Shown piece by piece: positions 10,408-33,536 of a DNA stretch of 33,536 nucleotides. Where the stretch lies: contig CAJFVQ010000083.1 of the NCBI GenBank assembly GCA_904420535.1, positions 1 to 33,536 of the forward strand, given 5' to 3'. The notes below the pieces were generated by a model. That model was given only the letters and a program-made list of their open reading frames with translations. It did not search any database and was not told the origin of the DNA. Source of the DNA: Candidatus Cryptoclostridium obscurum (GTDB lineage Bacteria; Bacillota; Dehalobacteriia; UBA7702). A program made the position numbers and the translations under genes. Position 1 is the stretch's first letter. Each line of letters opens with the position of its first letter.

Positions 10408-10590
10408 AATCAATCCCTGCGTTGTACGTGTTAACCGAGTTTTGAACCTACACCACTTCTACGGGAATCTGGCGCTTTCTGTGGACCAAATGCCCCCTCG
10501 TCGGGGACTTGGAAATCAGGAAGGAGGATACCCACCTGCCTATGTGCAGGGAGCAAAACAAGGTACACGGCAAATGTGGGGATGTTTGCT
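10408..10590 (+). ncRNA. ssrS: 6S RNA
   Basis: This roughly 180-nt gene lies between aspS and tcdA, the same place as bsrA (6S-1 RNA) of Bacillus subtilis. It follows a good promoter and has no coding frame. The 5' end (10413-10423) pairs with the 3' end (10573-10583) in an uninterrupted 11-pair closing helix that includes G-U pairs. The middle holds a GC-rich hairpin (CCCC-CTCGT-CGGGG, around 10492-10506) as the tip of a long irregular hairpin. 6S RNA mimics an open promoter and sequesters sigma-A RNA polymerase. Exact ends are estimates; the 3' end has no clear U-tract terminator. It fills the 358-bp gap between aspS and tcdA, and nothing else was seen in 10258-10372. Confidence 0.85.
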
Positions 10591-28464: not shown

Positions 28465-29931
28465 ATGTCAATTTCCTATTGGCAAGATACTGTTAAGAAT
28501 CAGACAAATGATAGAAACCAGCGTCCCATTCCTCGAAGAACCGATGTCGCTGTAGTCGGCGGCGGTATCGCTGGCATTCTAATTGCTTATTACCTACAAT
28601 CCGCTGGAAAAAAGGTAGTTTTATTGGAAGCAAAACATATTTTGGAAGGTGTGACAGCTTGCACTACGGCAAAAGTAACGTCACAGCACGGATTGGTTTA
28701 CAGGGATTTGGAGCGCTATTTTGGCCTGGAATTTTCGTCTCTTTATGCTTCCGCTAATGAAGAAGCAATTTCGGAATATCGAAGGTTGATTCGGAAAAAA
28801 AAGATTGACTGCGATTGGGAAGATGTCAATGCTTACATTTACTCTCTTGGTGATCCGAAACGGGTAGAAAGAGAGATTGAATCTTCTTGTAACGCCGGCA
28901 TCAAAGCAGAGTGGACTGATCAAACGGAGTTGCCTTTCCCTGTGACTGCAGCTGTTTGTTTTCCTAATCAGGGAAAGTTCCATCCGTTAAAGTTTCTCAC
29001 CTGTTTGGCAGAGGAGTTAACTATTTTTGAAAATATCCGGGTGAAAGAAGTCCGTAATCAAGAAGTGATTTGGGATGGTGGAGCCTTGCAAGCAGAAGAT
29101 GTTGTCATTGCAACCCACTATCCATTTATCAATATTCCCGGTTTTTATTTTCTAAAAATGCATCAAGAGCGCTCCTATGTGGTGGCAATGGAACATGACG
29201 ACCACTTGCATCATCACTATTTGGAAGAAAGCAGTCATTGTTCTTTTCGAAGTCATGATAAATTGCTCTTTCTTGGCGGTGGCGGCCATCGTACCGGTGA
29301 GCATGATCATGCTGTTTACGACGATTTGTGGTTACGAGCGAAAAAGTGGTTTCCTCAGGCCAGGGCACGTTATTTCTGGTCGCCGCAAGACTGCATGACT
29401 GATGACCGACTTCCCTATATCGGACATTATTCTCTTGAAACACCGCATCTTTATTTGGCGACAGGATTCGGCAAATGGGGGATGACCAATGCCATGGTCG
29501 CTGCTCGCCTTATTTCTGATCTAATCATCAATGGTCACTCTCCTTACGCTTTTTTGTATGACCCGGGGCGGTTAAAAATTTCAGCATCGGCCAAACAGTT
29601 TTTTATTGACGGCAGCGAAGTAATAAAAGGACTTGGAAAGTCAATCTTTTCCATCGGCCCTCATCATATTGGTAACTTGGAAAACGATCATGCAAAAATC
29701 ATCGATCATCATGGCTCCCTTGTGGCCGTTTATCGAGATAGTAATGGGAAGGATACTGCTGTTTCAGGGGTATGTTCTCATTTGGGGTGTGCCGTTCACT
29801 GGAATAGTGACGAAAAAATCTATGAATGCCCCTGTCATGGCTCTTGTTTTGATGCCCACGGCCGGTTGTTGGGTGGCCCGGCATTGAAAAACCTGGAGCC
29901 TGTTGCCTTGGATCACTTGGATCAAGAATAA
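28465..29931 (+). CDS. FAD-dependent oxidoreductase with C-terminal Rieske domain
   Basis: A 488-residue fusion. Residues 26-60 form an ADP-binding fold (VGGGIAG at 31-37) of the DAO/glycine-oxidase-like family, ending in LLEAKHILEGVTACTTAK. The C-terminus is a Rieske [2Fe-2S] domain with Cys437-x-His439 and Cys455-x2-His458, plus Cys442 and Cys457 positioned for the stabilising disulfide (CSHLGC, CPCHGS). Bacillus YhfW has the same architecture; substrate and partner are unknown. GGGAGG lies upstream of the ATG, and an AATTGA/TCAATT inverted repeat (28422-28439) sits in the leader. Its stop is 7 bp before the first Fur-type operator of the zinc operon. Confidence 0.9.
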   Translation: MSISYWQDTVKNQTNDRNQRPIPRRTDVAVVGGGIAGILIAYYLQSAGKKVVLLEAKHILEGVTACTTAKVTSQHGLVYRDLERYFGLEFSSLYASANEEAISEYRRLIRKKKIDCDWEDVNAYIYSLGDPKRVEREIESSCNAGIKAEWTDQTELPFPVTAAVCFPNQGKFHPLKFLTCLAEELTIFENIRVKEVRNQEVIWDGGALQAEDVVIATHYPFINIPGFYFLKMHQERSYVVAMEHDDHLHHHYLEESSHCSFRSHDKLLFLGGGGHRTGEHDHAVYDDLWLRAKKWFPQARARYFWSPQDCMTDDRLPYIGHYSLETPHLYLATGFGKWGMTNAMVAARLISDLIINGHSPYAFLYDPGRLKISASAKQFFIDGSEVIKGLGKSIFSIGPHHIGNLENDHAKIIDHHGSLVAVYRDSNGKDTAVSGVCSHLGCAVHWNSDEKIYECPCHGSCFDAHGRLLGGPALKNLEPVALDHLDQE

Positions 29932-29938
29932 ATAGAAA

Positions 29939-29955
29939 ATGAAATTCAATTTCAT
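29939..29955. promoter_or_regulatory. Fur/Zur-type operator 1 (perfect palindrome)
   Basis: ATGAAATT-C-AATTTCAT is a perfect 8-1-8 palindrome and contains a 7-1-7 Fur-family box. It ends 1 bp before the -35 of the zur-znu promoter, so a bound repressor would block polymerase. Confidence 0.7.
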
Positions 29956-29956
29956 A

Positions 29957-29985
29957 TTGACAAATGACATCTTAAAGCGTACAAT
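29957..29985 (+). promoter_or_regulatory. Sigma-A promoter of the zur-znu operon
   Basis: A perfect TTGACA (29957-29962), a 17-bp spacer and TACAAT (29980-29985). Operators lie immediately upstream and downstream of it. Confidence 0.88.
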
Positions 29986-29990
29986 AAATT

Positions 29991-30011
29991 TGAAATTGAA
30001 ACTCATTTTCA
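29991..30011. promoter_or_regulatory. Fur/Zur-type operator 2 (overlapping boxes)
   Basis: A 21-bp imperfect palindrome with outer half-sites TGAAATTGA and TCATTTTCA around 3 bp. It can be read as two 7-1-7 boxes offset by 6 bp, the arrangement bound by two Fur-family dimers. It covers the transcription start just after the -10. Confidence 0.7.
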
Positions 30012-30036: not shown

Positions 30037-30450
30037 ATGGGATACAATACCAAGCAAAGAGATCGCATCATGGAATTCCTGAAGGCCAACGGTGACCGAC
30101 ATATTACCGTTGATGTCCTTTTTGATGCTTTCCGTAAAGAAGGAAAGTCCATTGGGAAATCAACGATTTACCGCTATCTTGATATTTTGGTAAGTGAAGG
30201 TGTTGTACGTAAATTCATGATTGAGGAAGGCCGTCCTGCCTGTTATCAGTATTGCGGTGACTGCTCTCAATGCTGCGAGCATTATCACTTAAAATGCAGC
30301 GGTTGTGGTGAGCTGTTTCATATTGATTCTATTTATTTGGAAAAGGCAAAAGATGAATTAATGCGACTTTATGGTTTTGCCGTAGATTCCTCTAAAACGG
30401 TTTTTTATGGTCTTTGTGCCAGATGCAGAGAGAAGGAGAACAGGGTATGA
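30037..30450 (+). CDS. zur: Fur-family transcriptional repressor, probable Zur
   Basis: A 137-residue Fur-family regulator. Its winged-helix DNA-binding domain (about 1-75) contains KSIGKSTIYRYLDILVSEGVVRK. The dimerisation/metal domain has HYHLKCSGCGELFHID, giving structural zinc Cys87-x2-Cys90 with Cys127-x2-Cys130, and candidate sensing ligands His82, His84 and His95. An extra CGDCSQCC cluster (73-80) is notable. It is called Zur rather than Fur or PerR because it is coupled to a znuACB-like transporter; Mn or Fe sensing is not excluded. The start is ATG 30037, 5 nt after AAGGAGG; the in-frame ATG 30016 is rejected. Likely autorepressed through the two flanking operators. Confidence 0.88.
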   Translation: MGYNTKQRDRIMEFLKANGDRHITVDVLFDAFRKEGKSIGKSTIYRYLDILVSEGVVRKFMIEEGRPACYQYCGDCSQCCEHYHLKCSGCGELFHIDSIYLEKAKDELMRLYGFAVDSSKTVFYGLCARCREKENRV

Positions 30451-31406
30451 GGCGTTTAGGAACTGTTTTTTTATTATTATGTAGTTGTCTGCTATTTGTT
30501 GCTTGTGGTTCCGTACCTTCATCCGATGATGGAACTGCCGCAACGGAGGGGGAGGCCAATGCCGAGAAAATCAATGTTGTAACAACCATTTTTCCAGTGT
30601 ATGATTTCGTGAGGGAAGTCGGCGGTGAATATGTATCCGTGACCAAGCTCTTGCCTTCAGGAGTGGAAAGCCACTCTTTTGAACCGAGTCCATCCGATAT
30701 CATTACCATCAACGAAGCGGATTTGTTCCTTTATACCGGTGATGCCATGGAGCCCTGGGCTGTCACAGTGATAGAAGGCACTGACTCTGAGTCTTTAACA
30801 GTGGGAACTGTCTCGGAAAATGTACCTTTGCTGCGCCATGAGGAAGAAACCGATGCCGACAGTGATGAGGAAAACTATGATTATGATCCCCATATATGGA
30901 CAGACCCCACCCGTGCCATGATTATGGTGGATAATATCGCATTGTATCTTTCCCAGTGTGATCCAACCCATGCCGACGATTATCTTGCCAATGCAGAAGC
31001 CTACAAAAAAGAGCTGGAAGCATTGGATCAGGAGATACTGGAAATTGTGTCTAATGGGTCACGAGATAAAATCATTTTTGGGGGGCGATTCGCCTTTCTC
31101 TACTTCGTTGATCATTACGACCTTGAGTATGACGCAGCTGTGGATTCTTGTTCAGATCACAGTGAACCCAGTGCCAGAAAAATTGCGGAAATCATCTCCG
31201 AAATTGAAGAAGAGACCATTCCCGTTGTTTATTACGAAGAGTTGACCACACCTACAGTGGCACAAAGTATCTGCGACGATACCGGTGCAAAAATGTTACT
31301 GCTTCATTCCTGCCACAATGTGACCGAGGAGGAACTTGAAGATGGCGTAACATATTTGTCTTTGATGGAACAAAATGCGGCCAATCTGAAAGAGGGGCTT
31401 GATTGA
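30447..31406 (+). CDS. znuA: Zinc/metal ABC transporter substrate-binding lipoprotein (ZnuA-like)
   Basis: A 319-residue cluster A-I (ZnuA/TroA-type) binding protein, lipidated at Cys20 (FVAC lipobox). Metal ligands visible are His76 (ESHSFEP) and His149 (DPHIWTD). The third His of classical ZnuA falls in GGRFAFLYF, where Arg214 is found, so the site must use another residue; a clostridial-type CHNVTEEE segment (Cys289-His290) lies near the C-terminus. The mobile loop before His149 is acidic (residues 131-147) rather than His-rich. The start is ATG 30447, overlapping the zur stop (ATGA) after AAGGAG; the ATG at 30414 is rejected. The ABC partners follow directly. Confidence 0.9.
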   Translation: MRRLGTVFLLLCSCLLFVACGSVPSSDDGTAATEGEANAEKINVVTTIFPVYDFVREVGGEYVSVTKLLPSGVESHSFEPSPSDIITINEADLFLYTGDAMEPWAVTVIEGTDSESLTVGTVSENVPLLRHEEETDADSDEENYDYDPHIWTDPTRAMIMVDNIALYLSQCDPTHADDYLANAEAYKKELEALDQEILEIVSNGSRDKIIFGGRFAFLYFVDHYDLEYDAAVDSCSDHSEPSARKIAEIISEIEEETIPVVYYEELTTPTVAQSICDDTGAKMLLLHSCHNVTEEELEDGVTYLSLMEQNAANLKEGLD

Positions 31407-32113
31407 TGTACTTGGCTTGTAACCACCTGACAATGAAATATGAAAATACTTTAGCGTTAGATGACGTCAGTTTTCAGGTCGATGCCGGAGATTACCTCTG
31501 TATTTTGGGAGCTAATGGTTCTGGAAAAAGTACGCTGCTCAAGGCAATCCTCGGGTTATTACCGGTAAAAAATGGATCTGTTATTTACGGTGATGGCATC
31601 AAATCATCCGAAATTGGTTATTTGCCTCAGCAAACATCGGCGCAGAAGGATTTTCCGGCTTCCGTTTGGGAAGTCGTGCTGTCGGGAACCTTAAATCATT
31701 GCGGATTGAAGCCTTTTTATTCTCGGCGGGTAAAATCCATTGCCGAGCACCATTTGGAGCGTTTGGGGATCATTGATCTGCGGAAAAAAAGCTATCGTGA
31801 ATTGTCCGGCGGTCAGCAGCAGCGGGTGCTTTTGGCCAGGGCACTTTCCGCTACAAAAAAACTACTGCTTTTGGATGAACCTGTCACAGGACTAGACCCT
31901 GTGATTACTGCGGAATTATATGGTCTCATCGAAGAAATCAATCAGAAAGAAGGCATTGCCATTATAATGGTTTCTCACGACATGGATGGTGCCTTAAAGC
32001 ATAGCAATAAAATTTTACACTTAGATCAAAAAGTATTATTCTTTGGCGATACGAAAACTTATACCCACTCTAAGATTTGCAGAATCTTCTTGGGAGGGGA
32101 ATGCCAATGCTGA
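31406..32113 (+). CDS. znuC: Zinc/metal ABC transporter ATP-binding protein (ZnuC-like)
   Basis: A 235-residue ABC ATPase with Walker A GANGSGKST (35-43), Q-loop Gln75, signature LSGGQQQR (133-140), Walker B LLLLDEP (153-159) and the switch His in MVSHD. It powers the ZnuB permease. The start is ATG 31406, sharing a base with the znuA stop (TGATG), with GAGGGG 8 nt upstream; the TTG at 31403 is not used. It overlaps znuB by 7 bp. Confidence 0.93.
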   Translation: MYLACNHLTMKYENTLALDDVSFQVDAGDYLCILGANGSGKSTLLKAILGLLPVKNGSVIYGDGIKSSEIGYLPQQTSAQKDFPASVWEVVLSGTLNHCGLKPFYSRRVKSIAEHHLERLGIIDLRKKSYRELSGGQQQRVLLARALSATKKLLLLDEPVTGLDPVITAELYGLIEEINQKEGIAIIMVSHDMDGALKHSNKILHLDQKVLFFGDTKTYTHSKICRIFLGGECQC

Positions 32114-32949
32114 ATTTATTGCAACAAATTTTTTCTTACGATTTTTTGGTACGTGCTATGATTGTCGGCTCTCTGGTTTCCGTTTGTGCTTCGTTGCTCG
32201 GTGTAACATTGGTTTTAAAGCGGTATTCCATGATCGGCGACGGTTTGGCTCACGTGGGATTCGGCGCTCTTTCTGTGGCGCTTGCCATGAATGTAGCGCC
32301 TTTACAGATTTCTATCCCCGTAGTGATGATTGCCGCAATACTACTTTTGCGAATCAGTGAAAACAGCAAAATCAAAGGGGATGCGGCCATTGCCTTGATT
32401 TCCAGCAGTGCCATTGCTATTGGTGTTATTGTAACTTCGTTGACGAGCGGATTGAGCGTGGATATTTACAGTTATATGTTTGGCAGTATTTTAGCAATGG
32501 GGCGTCAAGACGTCGTGCTGAGTGTGGTGCTTTCCATTGTGGTACTGGTTCTTTTCGTATTGTTTTATCATAAAATTTTTGCAGTAACTTTTGATGAGAA
32601 TTTTGCCAGAGCCACGGGAACAAAATCCGGTATCTATAACATGCTGATTGCTTTGCTCACGGCATGTACCATCGTTGTGGGAATGAGGATCATGGGAACC
32701 ATGTTGATTTCCAGTTTAATCATTTTTCCCGCTCTTTCTTCGATGCGTGTATTTAAAAGTTTCCGTAATGTAGTGCTTAGTTCTGCGATTATTTCTATCG
32801 TATGCTTTTTCTGGGGGATTGTGGCTTCTTTTGGCTGGTCATTGCCGACGGGAGCCAGCATTGTAATTGTTAACTTGATTGTATTGGGACTTTTTGCATT
32901 TGCAGGCTTTATGATATCGAAAATCAATAGGAGAAAACTACATGAATAA
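32107..32949 (+). CDS. znuB: Zinc/metal ABC transporter permease (ZnuB-like)
   Basis: A 280-residue ABC-3 family membrane permease with about seven to eight helices. The conserved segments MIGDGLAHVGFGALSVAL and FDENFARATG are present, the latter preceding the coupling-helix region. GGGAGGGG (32092-32099) is 7 nt before ATG 32107; ATG 32101 is too close to it and the upstream TTG 32077 is inside znuC. The gene overlaps znuC at its start and the DUF896 gene at its end, so all are one transcript. Substrate is called zinc from the operon context. Confidence 0.92.
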   Translation: MLNLLQQIFSYDFLVRAMIVGSLVSVCASLLGVTLVLKRYSMIGDGLAHVGFGALSVALAMNVAPLQISIPVVMIAAILLLRISENSKIKGDAAIALISSSAIAIGVIVTSLTSGLSVDIYSYMFGSILAMGRQDVVLSVVLSIVVLVLFVLFYHKIFAVTFDENFARATGTKSGIYNMLIALLTACTIVVGMRIMGTMLISSLIIFPALSSMRVFKSFRNVVLSSAIISIVCFFWGIVASFGWSLPTGASIVIVNLIVLGLFAFAGFMISKINRRKLHE

Positions 32950-33262
32950 AAAGAAGATTGAACGCATCAACGAACTGGCCCAAAAAGCCAAAACTCAGGG
33001 ATTAACAGCAGAAGAAACTTCCGAACGAGAACAGTTGAGAAAAGAATATCTCGCTTCCATTCGTAAAAATGTAAGAGCCACATTGGACAACGTCGTTGTC
33101 CAACAGGAAGACGGTTCTTTGGTTCCTTTAAAAAAGCGAGATCCAAATCAAACGCATCATCAACATTGCGGCTGCGGTTGCCATGACCACGACCATCACC
33201 ATCATCATCACAGTGAATGCGGTTGCGGTCACCACCATGGAGATGAGAAATGGAGGCAATAA
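32942..33262 (+). CDS. DUF896 domain protein with C-terminal His/Cys-rich metal-binding tail
   Basis: A 106-residue cytoplasmic protein. Residues 1-66 match the DUF896/YnzC helical-hairpin family (ERINELAQKAKTQGLTAEE, then EREQLRKEYLASIRKN and TLDNVVVQQEDGSLVP). Residues 72-99 are an added tail with 14 His and 5 Cys (two short CGCG runs and a six-His run), an evident zinc/nickel-binding stretch that family members such as YnzC of the Bacillus SOS operon lack. Its start overlaps znuB by 8 bp with AGGAG upstream. Coupling to znuACB suggests zinc buffering, storage or delivery to a client; the DUF896 function itself is unknown. A terminator follows. Confidence 0.88.
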   Translation: MNKKKIERINELAQKAKTQGLTAEETSEREQLRKEYLASIRKNVRATLDNVVVQQEDGSLVPLKKRDPNQTHHQHCGCGCHDHDHHHHHHSECGCGHHHGDEKWRQ

Positions 33263-33289: not shown

Positions 33290-33312
33290 AAAGGAGGCTT
33301 TGGCCTCCTTTT
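33290..33312 (+). terminator. Rho-independent terminator of the zur-znu operon
   Basis: AAAGGAGGC (33290-33298) pairs with GCCTCCTTT (33303-33311) across a TTTG loop, followed by T-rich sequence. Confidence 0.88.
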
Positions 33313-33513: not shown

Positions 33514-33536
33514 ATGTTGGAAACAATCATAAAAAG
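33514..33536 (+). CDS. Partial CDS at the window edge
   Basis: ATG at 33514 follows TTGGAGGAAT with about 8 nt spacing and begins MLETIIK before the window ends. Too short to identify. Upstream are a promoter candidate and a leader hairpin, supporting a genuine start. Confidence 0.5.

Follow-up and report, generated by a model that had tools for sequence, protein, structure and literature searches.

A DUF896 protein with a cysteine- and histidine-rich tail, encoded at the end of a putative metal-uptake operon of Candidatus Cryptoclostridium obscurum

The last gene of a putative metal-uptake operon of Candidatus Cryptoclostridium obscurum encodes a protein in which a DUF896 (YnzC) domain is followed by a tail rich in cysteine and histidine. 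The operon is found near the end of a 33,536-nucleotide stretch of DNA (contig CAJFVQ010000083.1), called the window below. DUF896/YnzC is an old family without known function. Judged from the sequence, the tail may be a metal arm, and the protein, made together with the znu importer, may accept or buffer metal in the cytosol. We assign this reading a probability of roughly 0.45, which ranks it first; second comes the reading in which the tail is a general feature of DUF896 proteins and its position here an accident. Two findings, a tail on over half of the DUF896 proteins sampled from one phylum and one such gene in a metal-uptake operon, provide a concrete and cheap hypothesis, namely that these proteins handle transition metals. 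If it is true, an uncharacterised stress protein becomes part of bacterial zinc handling.

The gene occupies positions 32942 to 33262 of the plus strand, starts with the ATG at 32942-32944 and codes for 106 amino acids. Its sole Pfam domain is PF05979 (DUF896), which spans residues 4-62 with an E-value of 3.1e-22 and a score of 78.7 bits against a gathering cut-off of 24.2, so that the DUF896/YnzC domain recognised in the initial annotation is confirmed. The core of the tail, residues 72-99 (33155-33238, plus strand), reads HHQHCGCGCHDHDHHHHHHSECGCGHHH and consists of a run of histidines between two CGCG motifs. It lies outside both the Pfam and the NCBIfam matches. The 14 His and 5 Cys counted earlier in these 28 residues are indeed present, and the tail is well suited to metal binding. 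From ordinary coordination chemistry, a Cys/His peptide of this kind would very likely bind Zn, Ni or Co.

The AlphaFold2 model contains two helices (residues 3-18 and 23-49) and two short strands (52-54 and 60-62). The hairpin is predicted confidently, with a pLDDT of about 90, and the value is about 50 from residue 71 on. At this pLDDT the tail is predicted to be disordered and thus forms an arm rather than a folded zinc domain, at least in the absence of metal; it is probably a disordered cytosolic arm that binds a transition metal. The best Foldseek match of the model is 3bhp (probability 1.00, target TM 0.84), the helical hairpin of YnzC, and no Foldseek match with a useful E-value other than YnzC was obtained. 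A sequence search for solved relatives likewise returned only the three B. subtilis YnzC entries (2hep, 3bhp and 2jvd). Bacillus subtilis YnzC (PF05979) has the same domain and the same helical hairpin, with 47% identity over the fold match, but it lacks a Cys/His tail; the terminal HHHHHH seen in the PDB chains was added for purification. The two genes also differ in their setting, since ynzC is SOS-regulated in Bacillus whereas the gene in the window belongs to a metal-uptake operon.

The operon has the order fur-znuA-znuC-znuB-DUF896, followed by a terminator, and all of its genes are on the plus strand. The gene of the Fur-family regulator (30037-30450; PF01475, E 5e-20) likely starts at the ATG at 30037, which follows an AAGGAGG, within a reading frame that is open from 30016. 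It overlaps by 4 nt with the gene of a ZnuA-like metal-binding lipoprotein (30447-31406; PF01297, E 2.3e-79), which in turn overlaps by 1 nt with the gene of a ZnuC-like ATPase (31406-32113; PF00005, E 2.7e-28). The latter shares 7 nt with the gene of a ZnuB-like permease (32107-32949; PF00950, E 1.1e-54), whose product is the only strong ABC-3 permease match of the genome. The TAA of znuB is at 32947-32949, beyond the DUF896 start codon, and the coordinates thus bear out the 8-bp overlap described in the initial annotation. The Shine-Dalgarno sequence of the DUF896 gene, AGGAG, is inside znuB at 32929-32933, eight bases 5' of the ATG. The joint is unlikely to be an assembly chimera, since it is spanned by the coding overlap with its ribosome site and the sequences to either side are similar in GC content. 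An intrinsic terminator (33290-33311, plus strand; 9-bp stem, loop of 4 and T-rich tail) is located directly 3' of the DUF896 gene, which is therefore the last gene of the operon, as had been proposed; the operon is probably metal-regulated. The next gene, nrdD, starts at 33514 on the plus strand and runs past the end of the window at 33536; it encodes 740 amino acids in all. Directly upstream of the operon, a gene at 28465-29931 (plus strand) encodes an FAD-dependent oxidoreductase with a fused C-terminal Rieske [2Fe-2S] domain. The only Rfam family found in the window is 6S RNA (RF00013, 80.8 bits), the gene of which is away from the operon, at 10411-10586 on the plus strand.

A strong promoter-like site, TTGACA-17-TACAAT (29957-29985, plus strand; 11 of 12 matches), precedes the regulator gene and is flanked by two operator-like palindromes. 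Palindrome 1, AGAAAATGAAATTCAATTTCA (29934-29954), is 5' of the -35 hexamer, and palindrome 2, TGAAATTGAAACTCATTTTCA (29991-30011), is 3' of the -10 hexamer. The search pattern TGAAAWTGA-N3-TCAWTTTCA was taken from palindrome 2, which matches it with 0 mismatches, and only palindrome 1, with 1 mismatch, is therefore an independent match. No other site in the 2.1-Mb genome matches the pattern with fewer than two mismatches. A wider regulon was considered and rejected, as the four next-best sites checked fall within or next to genes that have no obvious connection with zinc. This arrangement fits a Fur-family operon that controls itself and has a narrow regulon.

The identity of the metal is less sharply indicated. 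The Fur-family regulator scores under all of the NCBIfam equivalog cut-offs for Zur, Fur and PerR. The best NCBIfam matches of ZnuA are AztC and AdcA, both of which are zinc proteins, yet it stays under their cut-offs, so that neither the regulator nor the transporter reaches any NCBIfam equivalog cut-off. The two palindromes are also similar to Fur boxes. Zinc is the most plausible candidate for the metal of the operon, since AztC and AdcA are the nearest matches of the binding protein; the operon most likely serves zinc uptake.

Comparison with other DUF896 proteins indicated that the tail is a recurrent feature. A PF05979 search of 399 genomes of the phylum found DUF896 in 118 of them, and this sample together with relatives from the family and the class comprised 121 distinct proteins. 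When a tail was defined as at least two Cys and at least four Cys plus His on the C-terminal side of the domain, 70 of the 121 proteins had one, typically made of CxCG and a His cluster, with ends such as CSCGCGHHHHHKH, CGCGCGHKH and CHDDCCHHHHHH. The initial annotation had held that DUF896 proteins lack such a tail, and these numbers contradict it. In a matched test, the last 25 residues of DUF896 proteins and of neighbouring ORFs were subjected to the same Cys/His test, which was passed by 69/121 and 31/876, respectively (odds ratio 36; Fisher p 1.5e-48, a value that overstates the case because related sequences are counted as independent). Many of the 31 neighbouring ORFs that passed have recognisable Fe-S or zinc-ribbon ends. 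The distribution of the tail is patchy by lineage, since among 80 named loci of the genome collection, the best tblastn matches to the query alignment, a tail was found in one (labelled Syntrophomonadaceae), the rest being mostly labelled Lachnospiraceae, Oscillospiraceae or Clostridia. On the domain tree the tail state requires 22 changes, at least four of which are forced by well supported branches, although the count is rough because the tree was built on 58 columns.

These changes of state, and the strong variation in tail length and His number among close relatives (11 to 19 tail His across three genomes of one family), would be expected if the tail were a low-complexity expansion without function. 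CxC pairs, however, persist together with His in distant lineages, and the odds enrichment over neighbouring ORFs is 36-fold. Moreover, the His codons of the tail are a mixture of CAT (n=8) and CAC (n=6), which makes fresh slippage of a CAY trinucleotide unlikely. A functionless expansion is accordingly a very improbable explanation. Its local form, a repeat expansion for which the initial annotation had proposed looking for loss of the tail in all close relatives, was rejected on the mixed codons and on the recurrence of the tail: within the window's own family the tail persists in 3/3 DUF896 proteins, the fourth family genome being without a DUF896 match.

The setting of the gene is much less conserved than the tail. 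No Zur, ZnuA or ZnuB homologues were found at other DUF896 loci, within flanks of about 1.5 to 8 kb, some of them on short contigs. In the sister genomes G001 and G002, a nitrilase gene is followed by the tailed DUF896 gene and then, directly or one gene later, by nrdD, and nrdD homologues 78-80% identical to that of the window are downstream of DUF896 at L030 and L031. The nitrilase homologue of the window's genome is on a different contig. With other loci devoid of zur/znu and tailed orthologues of the family in unrelated operons, the earlier view that the zinc operon is the setting that explains the fusion is not supported, and zinc linkage as a general DUF896 rule, seen in one genome only, was rejected. 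Since the tailed gene of the nearest relatives sits between nitrilase and nrdD genes, the tail did not arise for the znu operon. ZnuB of the window shares up to 66% identity with proteins of a different family in the class, against about 50% with those of its own family; hence the znu operon was probably moved or acquired. No DUF896 match was found in the family with the closest ZnuB. The simplest history would be that the znu operon moved in front of a DUF896-nrdD pair that was already tailed.

This history lends weight to the second-ranked reading, according to which many clostridial DUF896 proteins, with a stress-, DNA- or RNA-related role, have the tail as a general part that senses metal or is structured by it, and its position in a zinc operon is an accident of rearrangement. 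The tail is widespread without a metal context, nrdD is the neighbour kept in the family and the znu operon the newcomer, ZnuB resembles that of another family (65%) more than that of its own family (50%), and DUF896 is under LexA control in Bacillus pumilus (PMC3896406). Such a reading is a serious possibility. It requires, however, the coincidence that a metal-binding tail landed in a metal operon by chance, and the 8-bp overlap, the separate ribosome site and the terminator mark a real transcriptional unit.

Several further observations concern the neighbourhoods of DUF896 and znuB. No Pfam family dominates among the DUF896 neighbours, and a LexA motif is near 0/175 of the DUF896 loci of at least 5 kb. 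The SOS/LexA context of Bacillus is not found in the window either, where the neighbours are znuB and nrdD, and it does not define the family. In 11/175 loci (L156, L171, L172, L189, L195, L223 and five others), an endonuclease III (Nth) motif occurs no more than 5 kb from DUF896, usually on the other strand, and this proximity might point to a link with DNA repair. ZnuB matches were obtained in 21 class relatives; in none of them was a DUF896 gene found behind znuB where the downstream DNA was covered. Some of their znuACB/adcACB operons likewise have an extra gene that is overlap-coupled to the end of znuB. In one relative (L238:2331-2930) a gene of a small DUF1980_C lipoprotein begins at the end of znuB, and similar lipoprotein genes are behind znuB at L241, L244, L245, L247 and L248. 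In that class, this small lipoprotein may be an additional component of the zinc system. These products are exported lipoproteins, whereas the protein of the window is cytosolic and unrelated.

The flexible His/Cys-rich terminal stretches of SlyD and HypB can hold several metal ions and bind nickel. The tail of the window protein is of the same type, but the host domains differ and a nickel gene context is absent. In a third reading the tail binds nickel (or cobalt) instead of zinc, as those of SlyD and HypB do, and serves the nickel enzymes of anaerobes. Strong matches to HypB and CO dehydrogenase occur in the window's genome, and HypB or CooS is present in 49/64 genomes with a tailed DUF896 against 20/48 with a tailless one. 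This correlation is not decisive because tailed and tailless genomes are of different ancestry and oxygen lifestyle; the association per enzyme is weak (p 0.035 and 0.019, uncorrected for ancestry), 15 tailed genomes have neither HypB nor CooS, and no nickel gene adjoins DUF896 here. The nickel reading is thus improbable, albeit less so than a functionless tail.

Under the preferred reading, in which the protein is a zinc acceptor or buffer, the arm on the DUF896 helical hairpin would bind a transition metal, probably Zn(II). Being encoded behind a Fur-family-autoregulated znuACB operon, DUF896 would be expected to appear along with the importer in cells short of the imported metal, most likely zinc. 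In the cytosol, the arm would take over or buffer the incoming metal and then pass it to clients, and the hairpin would dock to a partner. A zinc role of the tailed DUF896 is moderately likely here. Against it count the facts that the linkage is a single case, that znuB is followed by other genes in the class relatives, and that the tail is frequent in genomes where the context is not metal-related. A bolder and unlikely extension is that Cys/His-armed DUF896 proteins are widespread, unrecognised cytosolic zinc acceptors or sensors of anaerobic Bacillota, that this operon reveals their true job, and that tailless YnzC docks to the same client.

In COG0523 and UreG of the G3E group, a metal-binding His stretch is likewise carried by only part of the family, and some COG0523 proteins are tied to zinc limitation (PMC2770081). 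The optional stretch is shared with the window protein, which, unlike these metallochaperones, is a two-helix hairpin without a GTPase domain or GCxCC. One proteomics table lists EF_1580, a UPF0291 protein of E. faecalis, as found only in cells exposed to gliotoxin, a zinc chelator, and the same table contains AdcA, AdcA-II and alternative L33 and S14 ribosomal proteins (PMC10533825). This single table, on a different lineage of the family, is a hint of independent support for a link between DUF896 and zinc. Elsewhere, DUF896 proteins are reported to be controlled by LexA in Bacillus pumilus (PMC3896406), to belong to the Streptococcus mutans MecA interactome (PMC10845952) and, in Staphylococcus aureus, to rank among those whose genes citral induces most (PMC10213633), which agrees with a stress-linked role without defining it. 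A description of a metal tail on DUF896/YnzC/UPF0291 was not found in the accessible portions of the open literature. The DUF896 domain and His/Cys metal stretches on other proteins were already known; as far as the open literature shows, their recurrent combination is undescribed.

Besides DUF896, a scan of the genome revealed only one other protein with both HHHH and CGCG. It is a small acidic protein without a real Pfam match, encoded on contig C82 (L288:1165-1521) by a gene that begins shortly after an elongation factor P-like gene, and it carries the motifs CECGCGC ... CDCGCGGHHHHED.
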